Assembly: GCF_002001205.1 (NCBI RefSeq)
Contig: NZ_MUNZ01000118.1
Span: forward strand, 1 to 64,000
Direction of reading: 5' to 3'
Origin: Hydrogenophaga sp. A37
GTDB lineage: Bacteria; Pseudomonadota; Gammaproteobacteria; Burkholderiales; Burkholderiaceae_C
Length of the DNA: 64,000 nucleotides
Position 1 is the first letter of the stretch. Every line of letters begins with the position of its first letter. The notes beneath the pieces were generated by a model. That model did no database searches, was not told where the DNA came from, and worked only from the letters and a program-made list of their open reading frames with translations. A program made the position numbers and the translations under genes. Shown here in pieces: positions 2,278-60,386 of this stretch.

Positions 2278-3081
2278 ATGACCACTTTTCAGATCGTCCG
2301 AGACCACGACACCGAGCGCTGGACGCTCAATCACCCGGCCTCGCGCAACGCCTTGTCCGACACCATGGTGCTCGCGCTGTTCGAGGCCTGCCTGCGCGCG
2401 AAAGACGACAAGACCCTGCGCACGGTGGTGCTCACCGGCGCGGCGGGCGCCTTCTGCGCCGGCGGCAGCCTGGGCGCCTTCGCCAGTGCCATCGGTCAGC
2501 CGCTGCAGCCCGGAGAAGACGACCCGTTGATCGCCCTCAACCGGGGCTTTGGCGATGTGTTGCACGCGCTGACCGAGCTGCCGCAGTTGCTGATCGCCGC
2601 GGTCGACGGCCCTGCCATGGGCGGGGGCTTCGGCCTGGCCTGTTGCGCGGACGTGGTGCTCGCCACGCAGCGCTCGGTGTTCGCCACGCCCGAGGTCACG
2701 CTCGGCCTGCCGCCCGCACAGATCGCGCCCTTCGTCTGGATGCGCTTGGGAGAGCGGGCCGCGCGCGAATGCCTGCTCTCGGGGCGCCACTACCGGGCCG
2801 GTGAGGCGCGCGAACTCGGATTGGTGAACGAAGTGGCGGCCGACGGTGAGCTCGAAGATGCCTTGCACGACACGCTGCTCAAGTTCAGCCGAGCGGCCCC
2901 GGGCGCAACCGCCGCCACCAAGCGCCTGCTGCAGCGCCTGCGAGGCCCCGTGCCCGACCTGCGCGACGAGGCGGCCATCGCCTTCGTCAGCGCCCTGCGC
3001 GGCAGCGAAGCCGCGACCGGCCTGCAGGCCTTCGCACGTCAGCAGATCGCACCCTGGGTCAAAAAGAGCGCTGCGCCATGA
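2278..3081 (+). CDS. atuE: Enoyl-CoA hydratase/isomerase (isohexenylglutaconyl-CoA hydratase AtuE-like)
   Basis: A 267-residue crotonase-fold protein. The oxyanion-hole segments are GAFCAGGSLGAFA and DGPAMGGGFGLACCADVVLA, and the TPEVTLGLPP block carries one candidate catalytic Glu. It would hydrate an unsaturated acyl-CoA product of the carboxylase and dehydrogenase steps. The ATG overlaps nothing upstream and has an AGGAG site shortly before it. Its last four bases (ATGA) overlap the start of the biotin carboxylase gene, indicating translational coupling. It could alternatively be a methylglutaconyl-CoA hydratase of leucine breakdown. The position between AtuD- and AtuF-like genes favours the terpenoid role. 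Confidence 0.8.
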   Translation: MTTFQIVRDHDTERWTLNHPASRNALSDTMVLALFEACLRAKDDKTLRTVVLTGAAGAFCAGGSLGAFASAIGQPLQPGEDDPLIALNRGFGDVLHALTELPQLLIAAVDGPAMGGGFGLACCADVVLATQRSVFATPEVTLGLPPAQIAPFVWMRLGERAARECLLSGRHYRAGEARELGLVNEVAADGELEDALHDTLLKFSRAAPGATAATKRLLQRLRGPVPDLRDEAAIAFVSALRGSEAATGLQAFARQQIAPWVKKSAAP

Positions 3082-5141
3082 AGAAGCTGCTCATTGCCAA
3101 CCGGGGGGAGATCGCCCGGCGCATCGTCCGCACCGCCCACCGGATGGGCATCGCCACAGTGGCGGTGTATTCCGACGCCGACCGCGACGCCCTGCACGTG
3201 CGCGAGGCCACCACAGCGGTGGCGCTCGGTGGCACGGCCTCGGCCGACAGCTACCTGCGCGTGGACAAGCTGATCGCCGCCGCGCGCGCCACCGGTGCGG
3301 ATGCTGTACACCCCGGCTACGGCTTCCTGAGCGAAAACGCGGACTTCGCCCAGGCCGTGATCGACGCGGGCCTGATCTGGGTCGGCCCGCCGCCCGCCGC
3401 GATCCACGCGCTCGGCAGCAAGTCCGCCGCCAAGGCGCTGGCGTTGCGACAGGGCGTGCCCTGTCTGCCCGGCTACTTCGGCAGCGACCAGCGCGATCAG
3501 ACCTTCGTGGCAGAGGCGCAGCGCATCGGCTTTCCGCTCATGGTCAAGGCCGTGGCCGGCGGGGGCGGGCGCGGCATGCGGCAGGTCGCAAGCGCGGAGC
3601 AACTGCTGCCCGCGTTGCTGAGCGCGCGCTCGGAAGCGCTGTCCGGTTTCGGCAACGGCGACCTGTTGATCGAACGCGCACTGCTCGCCCCGCGCCATGT
3701 GGAGGTGCAGGTGTTCGCCGACGCGTTCGGCCACTGCATCCACCTCGGCGAGCGCGACTGCTCCGTGCAGCGCCGCCACCAGAAGATCATCGAAGAGTCA
3801 CCCAGCCCGGCGGTGTCGCCCGAGCTGCGCGCCGAGCTGGGCCGCTGCGCCGTGGCGCTGGCGCAGGGCGCTGGCTATGTGGGGGCGGGCACGGTGGAGT
3901 TTCTGCTGGAGGGAGAGCAGGAGCGTTTCGCCGCCGGGCCGCCCCAAGGCGAAACAGCCCCCTTGGGGGGCAGCGACCCGCGCAGCGGCGGAGCGTGGGG
4001 GCGTTTTTTCTTGATGGAGATGAACACGCGCCTGCAGGTGGAACACCCTGTGACCGAAATGCTCACTGGCCTTGATCTGGTCGAGTGGCAGATCCGTGTG
4101 GCGCGTGGCGAAGCGCTGCCGCTCACGCAAGACCAGGTGCACCTCAACGGCCACGCCATCGAGGTGCGGCTCTGCGCGGAAGACGCGCACTTCCGCCCCC
4201 ACACCGGCCGCGTGTCGCACTTCAGCGAGCCCGACATGCGCGGCCCCGGCCTGCGCTTCGACCATGCGCTGGAGGTCGGCACCGAGGTCAGCCCGCACTA
4301 CGACGCCATGCTCGGCAAGCTGATCGCCCATGCGCCCACGCGCGCCGAGGCAATCGAAAAGCTGGCCCAAGCCTTGGACGCCACCGAGGTGCTGGGCCTG
4401 CCCACCAACCGCGCTTTTCTGGCGGCCTGCCTGCGCCACCCGGTGTTCCGCGCGGGCGAGGCCACGATTCCCTTTATCGCCGAGCATGGCGACACGCTGC
4501 GGGCCGGCCTGCAGGCCACGCCCGCGGCCGAATGCGTGGCCGCGCTCGCCATCGTGTTTGCCTCGCGCCTGCCCGCGATGGCCCTGCCGTCGCCGTTCGC
4601 GCGTGGCGTGTGCCTGGGTGATCCGCAGGCATCGACCCCGGCGCTCTGGGCCGCCAGCCTGCGCGAAACCGGCCAGGGCGCCGTGGCGCTGGAGGTGGAT
4701 GGGCAGGCGCACCGCGCCAGCGTGTCCGCCGCTGCCGACGGACAACGCTGCATCACGCTCAACGGTCAACGCTGGCGCGCGCGCGCGCAGCGCCTGCCGG
4801 TCCCCGACCACTGGCAGGTCCAGCTCGACGGTCCTGAGGGCAGCTTTGAGTTGCAGCGCGAAGACCGCAGCTTCACCCCGCGCGAGCGCGTGGGTGGCGG
4901 TGCCGCTGCGCGTGAACTGCGTGCCCCGTTCAACGGCAAAGTGCTGACCGTGCACGCCGTGCCCGGTCAGGCGGTGCGGCGCGGCGATCCGCTGCTGGTG
5001 ATCGAGTCCATGAAGCTGGAGCACACGCTCGCCGCGCCGCACGATGCGGTGATCGAGAGCGTGGGCCCCTCGGTGGGCCAGCAACTCGCACCCGGCCAGC
5101 TGTTGATGAGCTTCCTGGTCGAAGCCGGTGCCGCCGCATGA
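3078..5141 (+). CDS. atuF: Acyl-CoA carboxylase biotin carboxylase/BCCP subunit (geranyl-CoA carboxylase alpha, AtuF-like) with in-frame repeat insertion
   Basis: A 687-residue subunit that carboxylates its own biotin using ATP and bicarbonate. The order is N-terminal biotin carboxylase domain (KLLIANRGEIARRI at residue 3), ATP-grasp glycine loop KAVAGGGGRGMR near residue 157, catalytic EMNTRLQVEHPVTEM near residues 313-327, then the C-terminal biotinyl domain with ESMKLE, biotinylated Lys at about 646. Residues 285-308 are foreign. A 72-bp class B repeat is inserted in frame at the beta-hairpin turn just before EMNTR, flanked by duplicated GCGTTT (encoding Arg-Phe each time). Deleting 78 bp restores the expected family sequence. 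ATG overlaps the previous stop by 4 bp and its own stop overlaps the next start by 4 bp. Confidence 0.87.
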   Translation: MKKLLIANRGEIARRIVRTAHRMGIATVAVYSDADRDALHVREATTAVALGGTASADSYLRVDKLIAAARATGADAVHPGYGFLSENADFAQAVIDAGLIWVGPPPAAIHALGSKSAAKALALRQGVPCLPGYFGSDQRDQTFVAEAQRIGFPLMVKAVAGGGGRGMRQVASAEQLLPALLSARSEALSGFGNGDLLIERALLAPRHVEVQVFADAFGHCIHLGERDCSVQRRHQKIIEESPSPAVSPELRAELGRCAVALAQGAGYVGAGTVEFLLEGEQERFAAGPPQGETAPLGGSDPRSGGAWGRFFLMEMNTRLQVEHPVTEMLTGLDLVEWQIRVARGEALPLTQDQVHLNGHAIEVRLCAEDAHFRPHTGRVSHFSEPDMRGPGLRFDHALEVGTEVSPHYDAMLGKLIAHAPTRAEAIEKLAQALDATEVLGLPTNRAFLAACLRHPVFRAGEATIPFIAEHGDTLRAGLQATPAAECVAALAIVFASRLPAMALPSPFARGVCLGDPQASTPALWAASLRETGQGAVALEVDGQAHRASVSAAADGQRCITLNGQRWRARAQRLPVPDHWQVQLDGPEGSFELQREDRSFTPRERVGGGAAARELRAPFNGKVLTVHAVPGQAVRRGDPLLVIESMKLEHTLAAPHDAVIESVGPSVGQQLAPGQLLMSFLVEAGAAA
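3929..4000 (-). repeat. Class B 72-bp repeat inside atuF-like gene
   Basis: A 72-bp copy of the class B unit (GGGCCGCCCCAAGGC at one end, GCAGCGGCGGAGCGTGGGG at the other), inserted in coding sequence. It is flanked by GCGTTT at 3923-3928 and 4001-4006, a candidate 6-bp target-site duplication. 72 plus 6 is a multiple of three, so the frame is kept. The minus strand is given because the intergenic copies at 40860 and 58535 read in the opposite sense. Confidence 0.9.
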
Positions 5142-6385
5142 ACGCGATGGCGCCCGACTTCACCGACGCTGACGTCGAGGCGCTGACCGACACCGTGCGG
5201 CGCTTCGCCAGCGAGCAAGTGCGCCCGCATGTGGACGCCTGGGACACCGCGTGCGAGTTCCCGCGCGCGCTCTACCGCCAGGCCGCCGAGTTGGGCCTGC
5301 TCGGCCTGGGCTACCCCGAACACCTGGGCGGCACGCCCGCACCCTGGCGCGCGCGCAACGCGCTCTCGCAGACGCTGGCGCGGCATGGTGGCAGCGGTGG
5401 CGTGATGGCCAGCCTGTTCTCGCACAACATCGGCCTGCCGCCGGTGCTGACCCACGGCTCGCCCGAGCTGCAGGCCGAAGTGATTCCCCCGGTGCTGCGC
5501 GGCGAGCAGATCGCGGCGCTGGCCATCACCGAGCCCGGCGGCGGCTCCGACGTGGCCAGCCTGCGCTGCACCGCGCGGCTAGACGGCAGCGACTACGTGA
5601 TCGATGGCGAGAAGGTGTTCATCACCTCCGGCATGCGGGCCGACTGGATCACGCTAGCGGTCAGAACAGGTAACGAGCCCCCACACTTCGCCGCTGCGCG
5701 GGTCGTTGCCCCCCAAGGGGGCTCGGCCACCTTGGGGCGGCCCGGCGGTGACCGTTCTGCCAGCCAAGGCGCCAGCGGCATCTCCATGATCGTGGTGCCC
5801 GGCGACGCAGCAGGCCTCTCGCGCAGCCCGCTGCAGAAGATGGGCTGGCACTGTTCCGACACCGCGCAGCTGCGCTTCGAGGGCGTGCGCGTGCCGGCGC
5901 GCTACCTGCTGGGCGAGGAGGGCGCGGGCTTTCGCATCATCATGGGCAACTTCAATGGCGAGCGCCTCGCCATGTCGGCCATGGCGCTGGGGTTTGCGCA
6001 GGCCTGCTTCGACGAAGCGCTCGATTGGGCACGCCAACGCCAGACCTTCGGCGCCCCACTCATCGAGCGCCAGGTGATCCGCCACAAGCTCATGGACATG
6101 CAGATGCGCATCGGCTCCACGCAGGCCTGGGTGGACGCGCTCACCGCCCGGGTGGACGAGGGCGACCTGAGTCCGGACTGGGTGGCAAATGTGTGCTTGT
6201 TGAAAAACCATTCGACCCAGACCATGCAGTTCTGCGCCGACGCCGCCGTGCAGATCCTCGGTGGCATGGGCTACATGCGCGGCACCGTGAGCGAGCGGAT
6301 TTACCGCGAGGTCAAGGTGATGATGATCGGCGGCGGTGCCGAGGAGATCATGAAAGAACTGGCCGCCCGGCAACTCAATCTGTGA
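5138..6385 (+). CDS. Acyl-CoA dehydrogenase with in-frame repeat insertion
   Basis: A 415-residue acyl-CoA dehydrogenase, about 30 residues longer than relatives. FAD and substrate blocks include LAITEPGGGSDVASLRCTAR and VFITSGMRADWITLAVRTG. The C-terminal domain has QILGGMGYMRGTVSERIYRE and then MIGGGAEEIM instead of an EGT-type catalytic segment, as in its paralogue at 963. The excess lies at residues 178-207. It is a class B repeat read in frame in the middle beta domain, between AVRTG and GISMIVVPGD. Coupled to the upstream gene through an ATGA overlap, it ends the operon just before a terminator hairpin. The exact acyl substrate cannot be told; a second dehydrogenase is expected when the shortened acyl-CoA is oxidised further. 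Confidence 0.85.
   Translation: MNAMAPDFTDADVEALTDTVRRFASEQVRPHVDAWDTACEFPRALYRQAAELGLLGLGYPEHLGGTPAPWRARNALSQTLARHGGSGGVMASLFSHNIGLPPVLTHGSPELQAEVIPPVLRGEQIAALAITEPGGGSDVASLRCTARLDGSDYVIDGEKVFITSGMRADWITLAVRTGNEPPHFAAARVVAPQGGSATLGRPGGDRSASQGASGISMIVVPGDAAGLSRSPLQKMGWHCSDTAQLRFEGVRVPARYLLGEEGAGFRIIMGNFNGERLAMSAMALGFAQACFDEALDWARQRQTFGAPLIERQVIRHKLMDMQMRIGSTQAWVDALTARVDEGDLSPDWVANVCLLKNHSTQTMQFCADAAVQILGGMGYMRGTVSERIYREVKVMMIGGGAEEIMKELAARQLNL
5679..5750 (+). repeat. Class B 72-bp repeat inside acyl-CoA dehydrogenase gene
   Basis: The same 72-bp unit as in the atuF-like gene but in opposite orientation (CCCCACACTTCGCCGCTGCG to CGGCCCGGCGGTG). It is read in frame and without stops. Clear target duplications are not seen at its borders, so the insertion may be older or the flanks have diverged. 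Confidence 0.88.
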
Positions 6386-6392
6386 ACGTCAA

Positions 6393-6418
6393 AAAGCCCC
6401 ACTAGCGAGCGGGGCTTT
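6393..6418. terminator. Bidirectional intrinsic terminator
   Basis: Perfect 8-bp stem AAAGCCCC/GGGGCTTT around a 10-base loop, between the end of the catabolic operon and the convergent DUF4148 gene. The stem's A/T ends give U-runs on both strands. Confidence 0.8.
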
Positions 6419-6456
6419 CGGCGCCAAGGGCGGGAGGCCCAGGGAAGAGATGCCGT

Positions 6457-6825
6457 TCAGCGGGCGGCCGTGAGCGCATCCACGGCGGCCTTCGCGGCGT
6501 AGCGGGCAGGGAACAGCTCGTTGAGTTTTTTGCCCGACTCGCCGTCGGCCACGATGTTGCCGGTGCGAACGGCTTCGTTCAGCTCGGCCTTCACCTCGGC
6601 GCGGGTCTTGCCGACCGAGCGCTCCTGGCTGGGGTAGAGGTCCGGGCGGACCTGGTTGAGCATCAGGCCGCTTTCGTTGTCGGCCGGCACATTGCCGGTG
6701 CGCACGGCTTCGGCCAGCTCGGCCTTCACTTGTTCGCGGGTCTTGGGGCCGTCGGCGGCGAACACCTGAGTGGCGGACAGAGCGATCAGGGCGGCGGCGA
6801 TGGCGGTGATGTGCTTGCGGTTCAT
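6457..6825 (-). CDS. Secreted DUF4148 protein with two tandem copies of the domain
   Basis: A 122-residue exported protein typical of Burkholderiales. A signal peptide (MNRKHITAIAAALIALSATQVFA) is followed by two copies of the short DUF4148 repeat, each reading like VKAELAEAVRTGN, then ADxESG, then a Leu-Asn segment before Pro-Tyr or Ala-Arg-Tyr. The function of the family is unknown. The start at 6825 is chosen over a longer frame because an ACAAGGAG ribosome site precedes it and the signal peptide begins there. It is transcribed divergently from the two-component system. Confidence 0.85.
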   Translation of the reverse strand: MNRKHITAIAAALIALSATQVFAADGPKTREQVKAELAEAVRTGNVPADNESGLMLNQVRPDLYPSQERSVGKTRAEVKAELNEAVRTGNIVADGESGKKLNELFPARYAAKAAVDALTAAR

Positions 6826-23306: not shown

Positions 23307-25163
23307 TCAGCGGTACATCGCGTCGATCTGGGCCGCGTATTTCTGCTGCACCAGCTTGCGCTTGAGCTTCATCGTGGGCGTGAGTTCTTCGTCTTCGGCG
23401 CTGAGCTGGGTGTCGAGCAGGAAGAATTTTTTGATCTGTTCCACGCGGGCAAACTTCTTGTTCACGCGGTCGATCTCGGTCTGGATCAACGCCTGCACCT
23501 CGGGCGCGCGGGTCAGGCTGGCGTAGTTCGAGAACGGCACGTCGGCGTCCTGCGCAAACTTCTCCACGTTGTCCTGGTCGATCATGATGATCACGGTGAG
23601 GTAGGGCTTCTTGTCGCCGATCACCACGGCGTCGGTCACGTAGGGCGAGAACTTCAGTTCGTTCTCCAGTTCGCTGGGCGTGATGTTCTTGCCCCCTGCG
23701 GTGATGATGATGTCTTTCATGCGGTCGGTGATGCGGAAAAACCCTTCCTCATCCACCACGCCCACGTCGCCCGTGTGCAGCCAGCCGTCGGCGTCAATCG
23801 TCTCGGCGGTTTTCTCGGGCTGGTTCAGGTAGCCCATGAACACGTTGGTGCCACGCACCAGGATTTCGCTGGTTGCTGGGTCGAGCCGCACTTCGTTGAA
23901 GCTGGCCGCCGGGCCGATGCTGCCGGGCTTCATGCGGTTCGCTGGCACGCCGGTGGCCGCGCCGCAGGTCTCTGTCATGCCCCACACCTCCAGCATGGGC
24001 ACGCCCAGCGCGAGGTACCAGCGCACCAGCTCGGGCGAGATCGGCGCTGCACCGGTGACGAGAAAGCGCGCGCGGTGGATGCCGATGAGCTTGCGCACGT
24101 TGTCCAGCACCAGCAGGCGCGCGGCGCGGAACTGCAGCTTCAGGCCACCGGGCACCGGCTCGCCCTTGAGCACGTGCTCGGCCACGCGCTGGCCCACGCC
24201 AATGGCCCAGGCGTAGGCGGCCTGTTGAAGTTGGCTGGCCTCCTTCAAGGTGATCATCACGCCCGAATAAAACTTCTCCCACACGCGGGGCACGGCGGTG
24301 AACACGGTGGGCGCGATCTCGCGCACGTTCTCGGGCACGGTCTCGGGGTTCTCGACGAAGTTGAGCTTGCCGCCGGTGTAGAGCGAGAAGTACTCGCCGC
24401 CCAGGCGCTCTGCGATGTGGCACAGCGGCAGAAAACACATGCACTCGTCGCTTTCGTGGCGCGCGATCAGGGTGTTGTAGCCCCGCACGGCATGGACCAG
24501 GCCACGGTGGCTGTGCATGGCGCCCTTGGGCCGGCCGGTGGTGCCTGAGGTGTAGACGAGGATGGCCAGGTCGTCGGGCTGGTTGGCGGCGATGCGCTGG
24601 TTCAGTGCCTCGGGGTGCAGGCGCAGGTGCTCGCGGCCGAGCTCGCGCAGGGCGGCCAGGCTGATCACCTGCGGGTCGTTCAGGTCGCGCAGACCGTCCA
24701 TGTCGTCGACGATGATTTTCTTCAGCTTCGGCAGCTTGTCGCGCACCTCCAGCGCCTTGTCGAGCTGCTCGTCGTCTTCCACGAAGAGCATGGTGGTGCC
24801 CGAGTCCAGGCACAGGTACTCCACCTGCTCGGCCGCGTCGGTCGGGTAGATGCCGTTGGACACGCCGTTGGCGCTGAGCACCGCCAGATCACACAGCACC
24901 CACTCCACCGTGGTGTTGGAGAGGATGGACGCGGTCTCGCGTTCGCCGAAGCCCAGCGCGATCAGGCCGTGGCCGATCTCGCTCACCGCCTCTGCCGTCT
25001 GGTTCCATGTCCAGCTGCGCCAGATGCCGAAGTCCTTCTGCCGCATCCAGATGTTGGGGCCGCGCTGTTTGGCCGCGTTCCAGAAGATCGCGGTCATGGT
25101 GTCGCCGGGGACGACGATCTTGTTTTCGGGCTGGATGGCGGACAGATCCCAGAGGTATGTCAT
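23307..25163 (-). CDS. AMP-forming long-chain acyl-CoA synthetase
   Basis: A 618-residue ligase that activates a carboxylic acid with ATP and CoA. The phosphate loop is LVYTSGTTGRPKGAMHSHRG. The adenylation core has EVWGMTETCGAATG, and the hinge reads GWLHTGDVGVVDEEGFFRIT then DRMKDIIITAGGKNITPSEL. It is full length for the FadD15-like branch. Its position inside a Liv transporter operon, between livF and livK, suggests uptake coupled to CoA activation. A long or branched acyl substrate, such as an isoprenoid acid from the atu-like pathway, would fit. It is not shown. Confidence 0.87.
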   Translation of the reverse strand: MTYLWDLSAIQPENKIVVPGDTMTAIFWNAAKQRGPNIWMRQKDFGIWRSWTWNQTAEAVSEIGHGLIALGFGERETASILSNTTVEWVLCDLAVLSANGVSNGIYPTDAAEQVEYLCLDSGTTMLFVEDDEQLDKALEVRDKLPKLKKIIVDDMDGLRDLNDPQVISLAALRELGREHLRLHPEALNQRIAANQPDDLAILVYTSGTTGRPKGAMHSHRGLVHAVRGYNTLIARHESDECMCFLPLCHIAERLGGEYFSLYTGGKLNFVENPETVPENVREIAPTVFTAVPRVWEKFYSGVMITLKEASQLQQAAYAWAIGVGQRVAEHVLKGEPVPGGLKLQFRAARLLVLDNVRKLIGIHRARFLVTGAAPISPELVRWYLALGVPMLEVWGMTETCGAATGVPANRMKPGSIGPAASFNEVRLDPATSEILVRGTNVFMGYLNQPEKTAETIDADGWLHTGDVGVVDEEGFFRITDRMKDIIITAGGKNITPSELENELKFSPYVTDAVVIGDKKPYLTVIIMIDQDNVEKFAQDADVPFSNYASLTRAPEVQALIQTEIDRVNKKFARVEQIKKFFLLDTQLSAEDEELTPTMKLKRKLVQQKYAAQIDAMYR

Positions 25164-25168
25164 AGGGC

Positions 25169-25231
25169 CCCCACGCTCGCCACTGCGTGGGCATCGCTGC
25201 CCCCCAAGGGGGCGCGAACTTGCTTGAGGCG
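25169..25231 (+). repeat. Partial class B repeat between ligase and livF
   Basis: Begins CCCCACGCTCGCC and contains GCTGCCCCCCAAGGGGG, then diverges from the unit. It lies inside the operon between livF and the ligase gene. Confidence 0.6.
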
Positions 25232-25253
25232 GCTCTGCGCTGCGTTCATCTGT

Positions 25254-30854: not shown

Positions 30855-30973
30855 CCCTCACCCCAACCCTCTCCCCGCGGGAGAGGGCGTTGAAGCCCTT
30901 CGCCCCGAGAAAAGCCCATGAAGCGAACGCGTGACTTGCTCCCTCTCCCTCTGGGAGAGGGCAGGGGTGAGGG
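30855..30973. repeat. Class A palindromic repeat (intergenic)
   Basis: A 119-bp element, beginning CCCTCACCCC and ending GGGGTGAGGG, between the AtuA-partner gene and the hydratase. Third class A copy in the window; all three are within terpenoid-type catabolic clusters. Confidence 0.85.
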
Positions 30974-40850: not shown

Positions 40851-40859
40851 GGCCGTTGC

Positions 40860-40931
40860 CCCCACGCTCCGCCGCTGCGCGGGTCGCTGCCCCCCGTTGG
40901 GGCTGATCCGCCTTGGGGCGGCCCGGCGGCG
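40860..40931 (+). repeat. Class B 72-bp repeat (intergenic)
   Basis: Complete 72-bp unit (CCCCACGCTCCGCCGCTGCG to CGGCCCGGCGGCG), between the glutamine synthetase homologue and htpX. It has the same length as the two intragenic copies. Confidence 0.85.
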
Positions 40932-41022
40932 GGTCGTTTGCCCGGTCCCAATGCCCTTGGCTTGAAAAGGGCGCCTTGGCCCTCACTATGATCTGCAACG
41001 CTTTTTCCCCTCCGGAGCCTTC

Positions 41023-41892
41023 ATGAAACGCATCTTCCTGTTTGTCCTGACCAACTTCGCCGTGATGGCGGTGCTGCTGGTCACCACCCGCATCCTGGGT
41101 GTGGACCGTTTCCTCACCGCCAACGGGCTGAACATGACGGCCCTGGCCGGGTTCTCGCTCGTGATCGGTTTTGGCGGCGCCATCATCTCCCTGCTGATGA
41201 GCAAGACGATGGCCAAGATGAGCACCGGCGCGCGCATCATCAACCAGCCTCAGAACGCCGACGAGGCCTGGATCGTGCAGACCGTGCAGAAGTTTGCCGA
41301 GAAGGCCGGCATCGGGATGCCCGAAGTGGCCATCTACGACGGCGCGCCCAACGCCTTCGCCACCGGCGCCTTCAAGAACTCGGCCCTGGTCGCGGTGTCC
41401 ACCGGCCTGCTGCAAGGCATGACGCGCGATGAGGTCGAGGCCGTGATCGGCCACGAGGTGGCCCACGTGGCCAACGGCGACATGGTCACCATGACGCTGA
41501 TCCAAGGCGTGATGAACACCTTCGTGGTGTTCCTCAGCCGCGTGATCGGTTACGCGGTGGACAGCTTCCTGCGCCGCGGCAGTGACAGCAACTCCGGCCC
41601 GGGCATCGGCTACATGGTGACCACCATCGTGATGGACATCGTGCTGGGCTTCCTGGCCGCCATCATCGTGGCCTGGTTCAGCCGCCAGCGCGAGTTCCGC
41701 GCCGACGCGGGTGCCGCCAACTTCATGGGCCGCAAGCAGCCCATGATCAACGCGCTGGCCCGCCTGGGCGGCCTCACCCCCGGCGAGCTGCCCAAGACCA
41801 TGCAGGCCATGGGCATCACCGGCAACCTGGGCAAGCTGTTCTCGACCCACCCGCCGATGGAGGACCGCATAGCGGCCCTCCAGAAATTGTGA
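41023..41892 (+). CDS. htpX: Membrane metalloprotease HtpX
   Basis: A 289-residue M48 zinc protease that degrades misfolded inner-membrane proteins. The zinc motif HEVAH is at about 144-148 ([15 protein letters not shown]), with the third ligand Glu in [13 protein letters not shown]. Two N-terminal helices and a pair near 155-230 anchor it. Full length. Starts with a TCCGGAG site (41009-41015); a terminator 117 bp after its stop ends the transcript. Confidence 0.92.
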
Positions 41893-42152
41893 CCCCCCGC
41901 GCCGCCTGACGGCGTCACCCCCCAGGGGGCGATGCGAGTGGCCTGGCAAAGCCAGTTCCACCGCATCCTGATTTGGGGCTCATGCATCCGGAGATGCTTC
42001 CCCGATAAGAAAGAGCGACCCGTGGGTCGCTCTTTCTATTTCTTCTTACGGCTCCGGCGTGAGTGCCTCGACCCAGAACGCGGCGGAACCGGCTTTGCCA
42101 GGCCGGAAGCAAAGCCCCCCGGGGGGTGACGCCGTCAGGCGGCGCGGGGGGT
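41893..42152. repeat. Class C inverted-repeat block flanking a terminator
   Basis: GC-rich arms CCCCCCGCGCCGCCTGACGG (continuing) at 41893-41923 and its exact inverse at about 42121-42152. Inside them is a second inverted pair around GGCTTTGCCAGGCCGG. The block is about 260 bp, without a coding frame, and lies between htpX and the glycine-zipper gene. Confidence 0.75.
42009..42036. terminator. Intrinsic terminator after htpX
   Basis: A 13-bp perfect stem GAAAGAGCGACCC/GGGTCGCTCTTTC with a two-base gap, followed by TATTTCTTCTT. Very stable and T-rich, so a clear rho-independent terminator for htpX. Confidence 0.85.
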
Positions 42153-46887: not shown

Positions 46888-46905
46888 CGGTTCGGTAGGG
46901 CGATC

Positions 46906-47052
46906 CGCCGCCGGGCCGCCCCAAGGCGGATCAGCCCCCTCGTGGGCAGCGACTCGCGCAGCGTGGGGGCTGAGGGCCGCAGCGCCGGGCCGCCCCAAGC
47001 AAGGCCGCACCCCCTCGGGGGGCAGCGACCCGCGCAGCGGCGGAGCGTGGGG
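46906..47052 (-). repeat. Two tandem class B repeats immediately upstream of rnpB
   Basis: A shortened copy of 63 bp (46906-46968) and a full 72-bp copy (46981-47052), both in the orientation of the atuF-like copy. The -35 position of rnpB falls in the last bases of the second copy. Confidence 0.75.
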
Positions 47053-47071
47053 GGCTTTTCCATTGGATAAT
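47043..47071 (+). promoter_or_regulatory. Probable rnpB promoter
   Basis: GATAAT at 47066-47071 lies 7 bp before the predicted 5' end of RNase P RNA. The expected -35 position falls inside the repeat end, with no good TTGACA. Confidence 0.45.
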
Positions 47072-53994: not shown

Positions 53995-54185
53995 GCGGCG
54001 AGCGCAGCGAAGCCCCCTCCAGGCCACCGCGGAACCGGCTTTGCCGGGCCGCCAGTGGCGCTCCCCTCTGGGGGGCTGAGGACCGCGGCTCCAAGCCTGC
54101 CTGCGCAGGCTTGGACGGGACGAAGGGGCATCGCCTCTGGCGATGACGCGGCCTGCAAGGCACGCCGCCGGCGGCGCGGGGGGGA
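53995..54185. repeat. Class C repeat inside the ABC transporter operon
   Basis: About 190 bp with inverted GC-rich ends (ACCGCGGAACCGGCTTTGCC and GCCGCCGGCGGCGCGGGG) plus an internal palindrome. It sits between the binding-protein and permease genes, so it is transcribed with them and may alter their expression ratio. Confidence 0.55.
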
Positions 54186-57852: not shown

Positions 57853-58533
57853 ATGACCGATCCCTTCATTCCCCCGATCACCGAAGACGACATCGCCAAC
57901 TACCTGGCCAACACGCCCGACTTTTTTGATCGGCACGCCGGTGTGCTGGCGGCGGTTCAGCTCAGCAGCCCACACGGTCAGCGCGCCGTGAGTCTGCAGG
58001 AGCGCCAGGCCGAGTTGCTGCGCGACAAGATCAAGGGCTTGGAGCTCAAGGCGGCCGAGATGATCCGCCATGGACAGGACAACTCCACCATCGCCGACCG
58101 TCTGCAACGCTGGACCCGTGAACTGCTGCGGACCCGCGAAGCCCGTGATCTGCCCGAGGTCGCCGCCCGCGAAATCGCCACCCAGTTTCTCGTGCCACAA
58201 GTGGCGATCAAGGTCTGGGATGTGGCGCCCGCGTTCATGACCCTGGCCTGTGCTCAAGGCGCGAGCGAAGACGTGAAGGCGTTTTCCAGCTCGCTCAGCC
58301 GCCCCTACTGCGGCGCCAACCCCGGGCTGGAGGCCGCCGGCTGGCTGGACGACCCGAAGGCGGTGGCGTCCCTGGCGCTGATCCCGCTTCGGACGGCTGA
58401 GGGGCAAGCGGCCTTCGGTTTGCTGGTGCTGGGCTCGCCCGATGCCCAGCGGTTCGCGGCCGACATGGGCACCGACTTCCTGGAGCGCATGGGTGAACTC
58501 ACCAGCGCGGCGCTGTCGCGCCTGAGGCCATGA
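57853..58533 (+). CDS. DUF484 family protein
   Basis: A 226-residue GAF-like protein that lies between dapF and xerC in many proteobacteria. The N-terminus reads ITEDDIANYLANTPDFFDRH then VSLQERQAELLRDKIKGLEL, followed by a GAF-type sensory domain. Function unknown; the conserved location suggests a link to XerC or DapF. ATG 57853 fits the family start. Confidence 0.85.
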   Translation: MTDPFIPPITEDDIANYLANTPDFFDRHAGVLAAVQLSSPHGQRAVSLQERQAELLRDKIKGLELKAAEMIRHGQDNSTIADRLQRWTRELLRTREARDLPEVAAREIATQFLVPQVAIKVWDVAPAFMTLACAQGASEDVKAFSSSLSRPYCGANPGLEAAGWLDDPKAVASLALIPLRTAEGQAAFGLLVLGSPDAQRFAADMGTDFLERMGELTSAALSRLRP

Positions 58534-58534
58534 C

Positions 58535-58607
58535 CCCCACGCTGGTCACTTCGTGTACGGCGCTGCCCCCCAAGGGGGCTGGCCTGCCTTGGGGCGGCCC
58601 GGCGGCA
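58535..58607 (+). repeat. Class B repeat between DUF484 and xerC
   Basis: Near-complete 73-bp unit. It starts one base after the DUF484 stop codon and ends 15 bp before the xerC start. The left half has drifted (GGTCACTTCGTGTACGG region), while the right half GCTGCCCCCCAAGGGGGC is intact. Confidence 0.7.
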
Positions 58608-58621
58608 GGCCGTTCGCGGGC

Positions 58622-60188: not shown

Positions 60189-60196
60189 CAAGAATC

Positions 60197-60386
60197 ACCC
60201 CCGCGCCGCCTGCGTCACCCCCTCAAGGGGGCGGCACTGGCCGTCCGGCAAAGCCGGCCCGGCGGTGCCCTGGCGCAACGCCCCCTCCGACGTGAGATGC
60301 CTTCATCCGTGGATGCGGTGGAACCGGCTTTGCCGGGCCACTCGCATCGCCCCTGGGGGGTGACGCCGCAGGCGGCGCGGGGGTGG
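60197..60386. repeat. Class C repeat with inverted ends before the methyltransferase gene
   Basis: Arms CCCCCGCGCCGCCTGCGTCA (60199) and its near-exact inverse ending at 60386 enclose about 190 bp with inner inverted GGCTTTGCCGGGCC segments. It ends 11 bp before the RlmI-like start codon. Confidence 0.75.

Follow-up and report, generated by a model that had tools for sequence, protein, structure and literature searches.

An AtuF-like biotin carboxylase gene from a Hydrogenophaga-type betaproteobacterium contains, in frame and directly before its MEMNTR motif, a copy of a dispersed, hairpin-forming repeat, here referred to as unit U, and the same unit lies in frame in 15 further conserved genes of this genome. 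Very probably, U is a structured repeat of the BRE (Beta-proteobacterial repeat element) type that has spread in Comamonadaceae, some copies of which survive in genes as tolerated loops, with the AtuF turn having been entered repeatedly. In the mechanism that we propose, a non-autonomous structured repeat of about 81 bp with three hairpins would have been spread through Comamonadaceae genomes by a putative trans-acting enzyme. Most copies would settle between genes, often directly behind a stop codon, and those in-gene copies that leave the frame open in a surface turn would persist as an extra Gly/Pro/Ser-rich loop. The AtuF-type turn between ...GTVEF and MEMNTR would be so tolerant that U and at least two unrelated repeat families entered it repeatedly, and U would sometimes have grown there into tandem arrays that kept the frame open.

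The 687-amino-acid host protein contains the Pfam domains Biotin_carb_N, CPSase_L_D2, Biotin_carb_C, and Biotin_lipoyl, and its best PDB match is 3u9s, the P. aeruginosa methylcrotonyl-CoA carboxylase alpha; the name AtuF is suggested by gene order. The nearest named homologues come from Hydrogenophaga and then from other Comamonadaceae, which bears out an earlier reading of this DNA, here called the sequence-only reading, that had likened the genome to that of a betaproteobacterium. The reading frame (3078-5141 of the window, the whole 64-kb stretch of DNA analyzed) stays open across the unit. Residues 278 and 308 of the host protein align to residues 285 and 288 of 3u9s, placing the insert within one turn, directly before MEMNTR, and by homology the added loop is predicted to be surface exposed. 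Purifying selection acts on AtuF (dN of 0.082 and dS of 0.409 relative to the AtuF of genome G047), and the enzyme presumably continues to function with its insert. A second in-frame copy, overlooked previously, is located on the opposite strand in the next gene, encoding an acyl-CoA dehydrogenase whose middle-domain match ends at residue 180, where the unit starts (Table 1).

Table 1. Coordinates of unit U, its structural elements, its further copies, and the two unit-bearing genes within the window
Feature	Position	Strand	Basis
AtuF-like biotin carboxylase/carboxyl carrier subunit, host gene	3078..5141	+	open frame; Pfam
Unit U, in frame in AtuF, reads RFAAGPPQGETAPLGGSDPRSGGAWG	3925..4002 (model bounds 3923-4003)	+	R1 101 bits (3923-4003), E 7.4e-16 within window
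Hairpin 1: stem GTTTCGCC (3925-3932)/GGCGAAAC (3948-3955), loop GCCGGGCCGCCCCAA	3925..3955	+	covariation
Hairpin 2: GCCCCC TT GGGGGGC	3957..3971	+	alignment A1; pairing in 94.8% of cells, double changes absent
Hairpin 3: CCGC-GCA-GCGG, loop GCA or GAA	3978..3988	+	pairing in 95.3% of cells, double changes absent
Conserved tail GCGTGGGGGC, abutting stop codons in many non-genic copies	3993..4002	+	alignment A1
Acyl-CoA dehydrogenase gene (next to AtuF) with second in-frame unit	5138..6385	+	Pfam Acyl-CoA_dh_N/M/1
Second in-frame unit, opposite orientation, reads EPPHFAAARVVAPQGGSATLGRPGGDRS	5676..5756	-	R1 98 bits
Diverged unit copy	25166..25249	-	R1 59.9 bits
Non-genic unit copy	40857..40937	-	R1 84 bits
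Shortened unit copy, first in tandem pair	46900..46971	+	R1 70.8 bits
Unit copy, second in tandem pair	46973..47055	+	R1 57.5 bits
Unit copy with different hairpin 3	58532..58613	-	R1 78.1 bits

The window, the genome, and its relatives were scored with a covariance model built from genome copies (R1), and base pairing was assessed in an alignment of 32 copies over about 80 bases (A1). Stem 1 shows strong covariation, with both-sided changes at 7 of its 8 pairs; elsewhere it reads GATCCGCC/GGCGGATC, GATCCGGC/GCCGGATC, and others, such that the letters shift and the pairing stays. Double changes occupy 53 cells of the whole structure, a count that none of 500 shuffles reached and that was lost when pairing partners were slid, and the letters of hairpin 2 are constant across copies. 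The case for structure rests on this covariation because folding z-scores were not strong; for six stretches cut close to the bounds of the sequence-only reading and folded as single-stranded DNA, the best was only -1.17. By the model the unit is about 81 bp long (range, 69 to 85 bp; most copies, 80 to 84 bp), and the mean GC content of 84 copies is 77.4%. We considered the open frames of the unit as an adaptation and discarded the idea; 86% of frames are open, compared with 75% in shuffles, which mostly reflects composition. Two sub-threshold Rfam matches within window positions 3500-6500, including mir-2968 (25 bits; gathering score, 70), which overlaps the second unit, were taken as chance.

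With these boundaries, several proposals made for the insert could be evaluated. The sequence-only reading had placed a 72-bp unit at 3929-4000 between two copies of GCGTTT, at 3923-3928 and 4001-4006, which it took for a candidate target-site duplication. Both hexamers are there with the repeat in between, and removal of 78 bp does yield GEQERFFLMEMNTR, as had been stated. However, the conserved unit measures 78 bp (3925-4002; 3923-4003 by model bounds), and GTTT pairs with AAAC inside it. As pairing in stem 1 persists despite letter changes, GTTT in the left hexamer belongs to the stem and is not target sequence. The two closest orthologues, the AtuF genes of G047 and G040, share the insertion and have no matching hexamers, with GACCGTTT on the left side and GGCGCTTT on the right side. 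A target-site duplication is therefore not supported at this site, and the hexamer identity in the window looks like a private later change. Genome-wide, direct repeats of at least 6 bp flank 13 of 74 non-tandem copies, against 4.5 expected; nearly all consist of CATG motifs or of tail sequence from the unit itself, and their length is not constant. The supposed gain of 26 codons becomes a net insert of 27 to 28 residues, VEFL-to-MEMNTR spanning 36 residues in the window versus 8 to 9 in 35 of 40 empty orthologues, and the model assigns 81 bp (40857-40937) and 83 bp (46973-47055) to the intergenic copies cited at 72 bp. The notion of an element with a length of 3n that never shifts the frame also fails, as the lengths of 68 non-genic copies equal 0, 1, and 2 modulo 3 in 27, 20, and 21 cases, respectively, and only 5 of 16 in-gene copies measure 81 bp. 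Because unit lengths are not multiples of three, the in-frame copies are more likely to be survivors, with junction changes, than products of such an element.

The unit is widespread in the host's family. The window contains seven copies, all with E values below 1e-7, and 84 were found in the 5.55-Mb genome at an E value of ≤0.001 when the best 150 candidates were scored. With this genome counted in both samples, 127 of 150 family genomes have the unit, as do 12 of 120 genomes from the order, 3 of these 12 belonging to the family. Among 72,556 plasmid records, five carry the unit (Acidovorax, Rhodoferax, Azoarcus, Variovorax, and Burkholderia), and the phage records searched gave no match. It is of note that on the Rhodoferax antarcticus plasmid NZ_CP019241.1 the unit (24217-24290) lies under a feature annotated as "Fic family protein," possibly an in-gene copy, and that a stretch of genome G028 (C1:2692254-2692658) consists of five tandem units with a period of 81.

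Of the 84 copies, 16 are located in frame within conserved genes, with a coding signal on both sides, and the remaining 68 are non-genic. Dispersal of a repeat in frame into unrelated coding genes, the principle of the Rickettsia palindromic elements invoked by the sequence-only reading, is thus upheld. The genes encode AtuF, the acyl-CoA dehydrogenase, Mpl, an OHCU decarboxylase/allantoate amidohydrolase fusion, a salicylyl-CoA 5-hydroxylase/oxidoreductase, MoeA, an EamA transporter, an AmgK-like kinase, a GNAT acetyltransferase, CobQ, GlnE, a metallophosphoesterase, a cytochrome d1-type protein, a DUF3833 protein, a carbonic anhydrase, and an XdhB-like protein. Each of these proteins has a Pfam match, and several exceed an NCBIfam cutoff. 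Six units are oriented with the gene and 10 against it, and several reading frames are used. A second, cruder coding scorer recovered 13 of the 16 copies, missing those in Mpl, the metallophosphoesterase, and the DUF3833 protein, and added C127:22236 and C16:4649, the latter being left off the list since it is upstream of an apparent pyrF start. Applied to the 15 best copies in each of two other genera, the crude scorer called 3 and 8 as candidate in-gene copies.

For the 15 in-gene copies besides that of AtuF, the flanks were searched for in four relatives, G047, G040, G020, and G066. Contiguous flanks were found in at least one relative at 14 of the 15 sites, the exception being Mpl, and the acyl-CoA dehydrogenase flanks are contiguous without the unit in all four. 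Base-by-base alignment at 13 of the 15 sites revealed no clean duplication or fixed junction, and some of the loop bases around the unit are, as a rule, also unlike those of the empty sites. At the amidohydrolase site, our genome has a family A repeat (described below) plus U, and G066 has family A only. The EamA and GNAT sites contain the unit in G066 and are empty in the nearer G047, a pattern that suggests turnover.

The sequence-only reading had proposed that empty sites be sought among the AtuF genes of relatives, and such sites exist. Our census and tree comprised 70 AtuF proteins, 51 from 67 genomes of the genus and 19 from named relatives, and the parser accepted only frames open through the turn. 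The turn contains U in 15 proteins, family A alone in 7, family R alone in 2, and other inserts in 6, and it is labeled empty in 40, so that the insert is not common to all homologues; family A occurs in 9 in total (2 together with U) and family R in 3 (1 together with U). "Empty" here means empty or nearly so, with 8 to 9 turn residues in 35 of the 40, as in outgroup genera. Tandem in-frame arrays of 2, 3, 4, and 5 units are present in L164, L166, L179, and L182, each copy adding 27 to 28 residues and the frame remaining open through all. The AtuF turn is therefore an insertion hotspot for U and for unrelated repeats, and we infer that its tolerance is the reason for these insertions. Omitted from the tree were L163 (partial, with U), the paralogues L165, L167, and L168, L214 (ending before the turn), L195 (a frame change at the turn), and L203 (5' end missing, with a long non-U insert). 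In L195, the AtuF gene of draft genome G050, the frame change occurs at this same turn without a recognizable unit, and the 309-base turn region of L203 is made of short repeats (SGSALTEGG-like) beside a family R-like peptide. In L157 and L150, the hairpin-2 loop of the in-gene unit holds extra, partly palindromic bases and is still in frame.

Instead of repeated gains, this distribution could stem from one early insertion in the common ancestor of the genus that was then lost many times, precisely or nearly so. Such a history would fit with U having the same orientation in all 15 tree sequences that contain it, and the same start frame in nearly all, as well as with L160, which resembles an internally deleted remnant; L142, L143, and L164 clearly have one insertion in common. 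The tree, which counts changes without direction, required 13 changes for "empty," of which well-supported branches force 12, and 8 changes for single U. However, we regard a single origin as unlikely. Most empty turns have the same 8- to 9-residue length as those of the outgroup genera, repeats of unrelated families are also found in this turn, and U-bearing and empty sequences form sister pairs (e.g., L151/L188, L150/L186, and L158/L193). In addition, U is present at this turn in paralogous carboxylases, namely, 1 of 20 that were fetched (L308, the gene of L168) plus L165 and L167. Selection on the peptide itself or on the number of its copies, which would make the insert a length-variable linker tuning the carboxylase, is less probable still and would be a surprise. 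The in-frame growth to five copies and the constant orientation in AtuF would suit such a linker, but the peptides SPHPNPLPxAGEG and VRAEPVEA..LRQAQGER found at the same place are unrelated to it, 40 of the 70 AtuF proteins do without any insert, and unrelated enzymes hold units in other frames. An assembly or contamination artifact is hardly credible; our assembly is a draft in 195 contigs, but its completeness is 100 and its contamination 0.06, and the same AtuF insert is present in the single-contig genome G047 and in further independent assemblies.

A second hotspot is the turn of Mpl, which contains U in both orientations in different species. Among the 30 best-scoring Mpl loci (L322-L351), seven contain U in gene orientation, as seen from its AGPPQ peptide, a few more contain worn forms, and in G040 and G061 the unit is reversed. 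Other Mpl genes, from different species, have an unrelated insert reading SAQVKEEPAQRAGDTEQSAQPPR, and in many of the remaining genomes both sides match without an insert. G120, from another genus, has a unit copy at the same place in Mpl. Two further dispersed repeats were observed in the window. Family A (CCCTCACCCC..CTCTCCC) occurs at 89-143, 2152-2206, 2221-2259, and 30935-30973, and its peptide SPHPNPLPxAGEG also occupies the AtuF turn of relatives. The other, around GGAACCGGCTTTGCCGGGCC, is found at 41892-42152, 54019-54066, and 60196-60385 and includes an 88-nt inverted pair; a Polaromonas (L042) has a similar stretch in its AtuF turn.

The placement of non-genic copies is non-random. 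A gene 3' end is found on the tail side in 49 of the 68 copies, with the stop codon within 9 nt in 39 of these 49, and on the head side only 6 of 18 are within 9 nt of a stop codon. One co-directional arrangement prevails by 38 to 8 (31 to 11 with the other scorer), and the units near stop codons are mostly antisense to the genes. Furthermore, five orthologous in-gene units differ at 11 positions, compared with 33.7 predicted from their coding flanks (P = 5e-6). These five were hand-picked from nine compared sites as those where both genomes have the unit, and the sample is small; for C113, one of the five, the deficit taken by itself is unclear (P = 0.22). The XdhB and DUF3833 units keep private stems, and a stem among the rate-test units reads, for example, TTTTTT/AAAAAA. 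Gene conversion would pull units toward the consensus, and since these stems have stayed private, constraint on structure is the better reading of the slow in-gene units. Units that change more slowly than the coding flanks at some sites weigh against merely tolerated filler, and together with the placement at stop codons they point beyond tolerated junk.

In light of this, it is conceivable, if on balance doubtful, that the unit is kept for a nucleic acid function, as intergenic hairpins of RNA or single-stranded DNA, and that translated in-gene copies retain this function. Stem covariation, the tail-side gene ends, and the rate deficit, private stems included, are what such a function would lead one to expect. 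However, the rate pairs had been selected by hand. The sites and relatives not used were Mpl, whose inserts differ; EamA and GNAT, which are occupied in G066 only and perhaps independently; the metallophosphoesterase, whose site is empty in G066; and the second relatives for AtuF (G040 and G031), C113 (G040), and GlnE (G040). Two of the left-out pairs have no deficit, C113 versus G040 (7/81 differences; flank, 58/599) and EamA versus G066 (9/76; flank, 70/599). A deficit is found for AtuF versus G040 (3/81; flank, 67/600), GlnE versus G040 (3/83; flank, 49/600), and GNAT versus G066 (5/83; flank, 113/571), and AtuF versus G031 gave 7/81 with a flank of 107/596. The arrangement bias was also not seen among the 15 best copies each of G120 (2 versus 6) and G197 (2 versus 1), although a tail start value of -9, which is a GTG in the unit's own tail, inflates the opposite class in our genome and in these two. 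From tail to stop codon, the five cases in G120 span -1 to 1, and G197 has distances of 1, 11, 25, and 53. A G-U wobble test gave 40 versus 59 in the 84-copy alignment, which is loose at its ends, and does not clearly separate the strands, and no Rfam match exceeded the gathering score in window positions 3500-6500.

As for relationships to known systems, BRE is the nearest element that has been described. The passage on BRE in a 2011 BMC Genomics paper (PMC3110155) describes elements of 75 to 91 bp that are GC rich (63.7 to 78.9% in Bordetella), occur in Bordetella and the Comamonadaceae (Polaromonas, Acidovorax, Delftia, and Rhodoferax), are mostly intergenic, form tandem arrays of variable number, and in some copies lie wholly inside coding sequences. 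As far as this description goes, U agrees in length, in GC content, in taxa (Comamonadaceae and some other betaproteobacteria), in its tandem arrays (one to five copies at the AtuF turn and the G028 array), and in its location, mostly non-genic with a minority in genes. U is therefore probably BRE or a sister family, a likeness of description rather than of letters. That same passage does not analyze in-frame location and reports neither empty sites nor covarying hairpins nor hotspots of insertion. The BRE locus of Bordetella adjoins lexA; in the nine genomes from outside the family that have the unit, none of which is known as Bordetella, no listed unit lies beside lexA.

The Rickettsia palindromic elements (RPEs), in the account given by a review (PMC10969869), are about 150 bp long and encode conserved peptides. 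Judged by that account, they resemble U as short dispersed elements in frame in unrelated metabolic genes; U differs in being about 81 bp long and in using several frames and both orientations, with no single peptide frame. The NCBIfam library includes an RPE model, and for the 16 unit-bearing proteins no RPE family model was among the best 25 NCBIfam matches listed at an E value of ≤1e-5. REP/RAYT elements and MITEs, as portrayed in part of PMC3733652, are like U dispersed, hairpin forming, non-autonomous, and found in tandem pairs. Unlike MITEs, U has no terminal inverted repeats, its head (GATCCGCC/GTTTCGCC) and tail (GCGTGGGGGC) not being complementary, and no constant target-site duplication was seen among the 74 non-tandem copies. 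A RAYT partner was considered and set aside, as the single Y1_Tnp match (C162:24345) is not linked to a unit, the only listed one on that contig being at 96826. In the literature searched, to which subscription journals mostly did not belong, we found no systematic in-frame use of the unit, shared landing turns, or in-gene tandem growth.

Frequent in-frame dispersed repeats are best known from Rickettsia, with its reduced intracellular genome, and here they are found in many genes of a Hydrogenophaga-type betaproteobacterium, from a genus with cultured species, near relatives of which have empty sites. Together with the AtuF and Mpl turns, hit repeatedly by different repeats, these constitute natural replicates that bear on how DNA parasites become protein parts and on tolerance near an active site. 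More speculatively, and in our view rather improbably, certain enzyme turns may be landing pads on which unrelated small repeats replace one another, with the resident hairpins selected more tightly than the surrounding enzyme. If this were true, the same bases would serve both as a peptide loop and as a working RNA or DNA element that is normally located behind stop codons.
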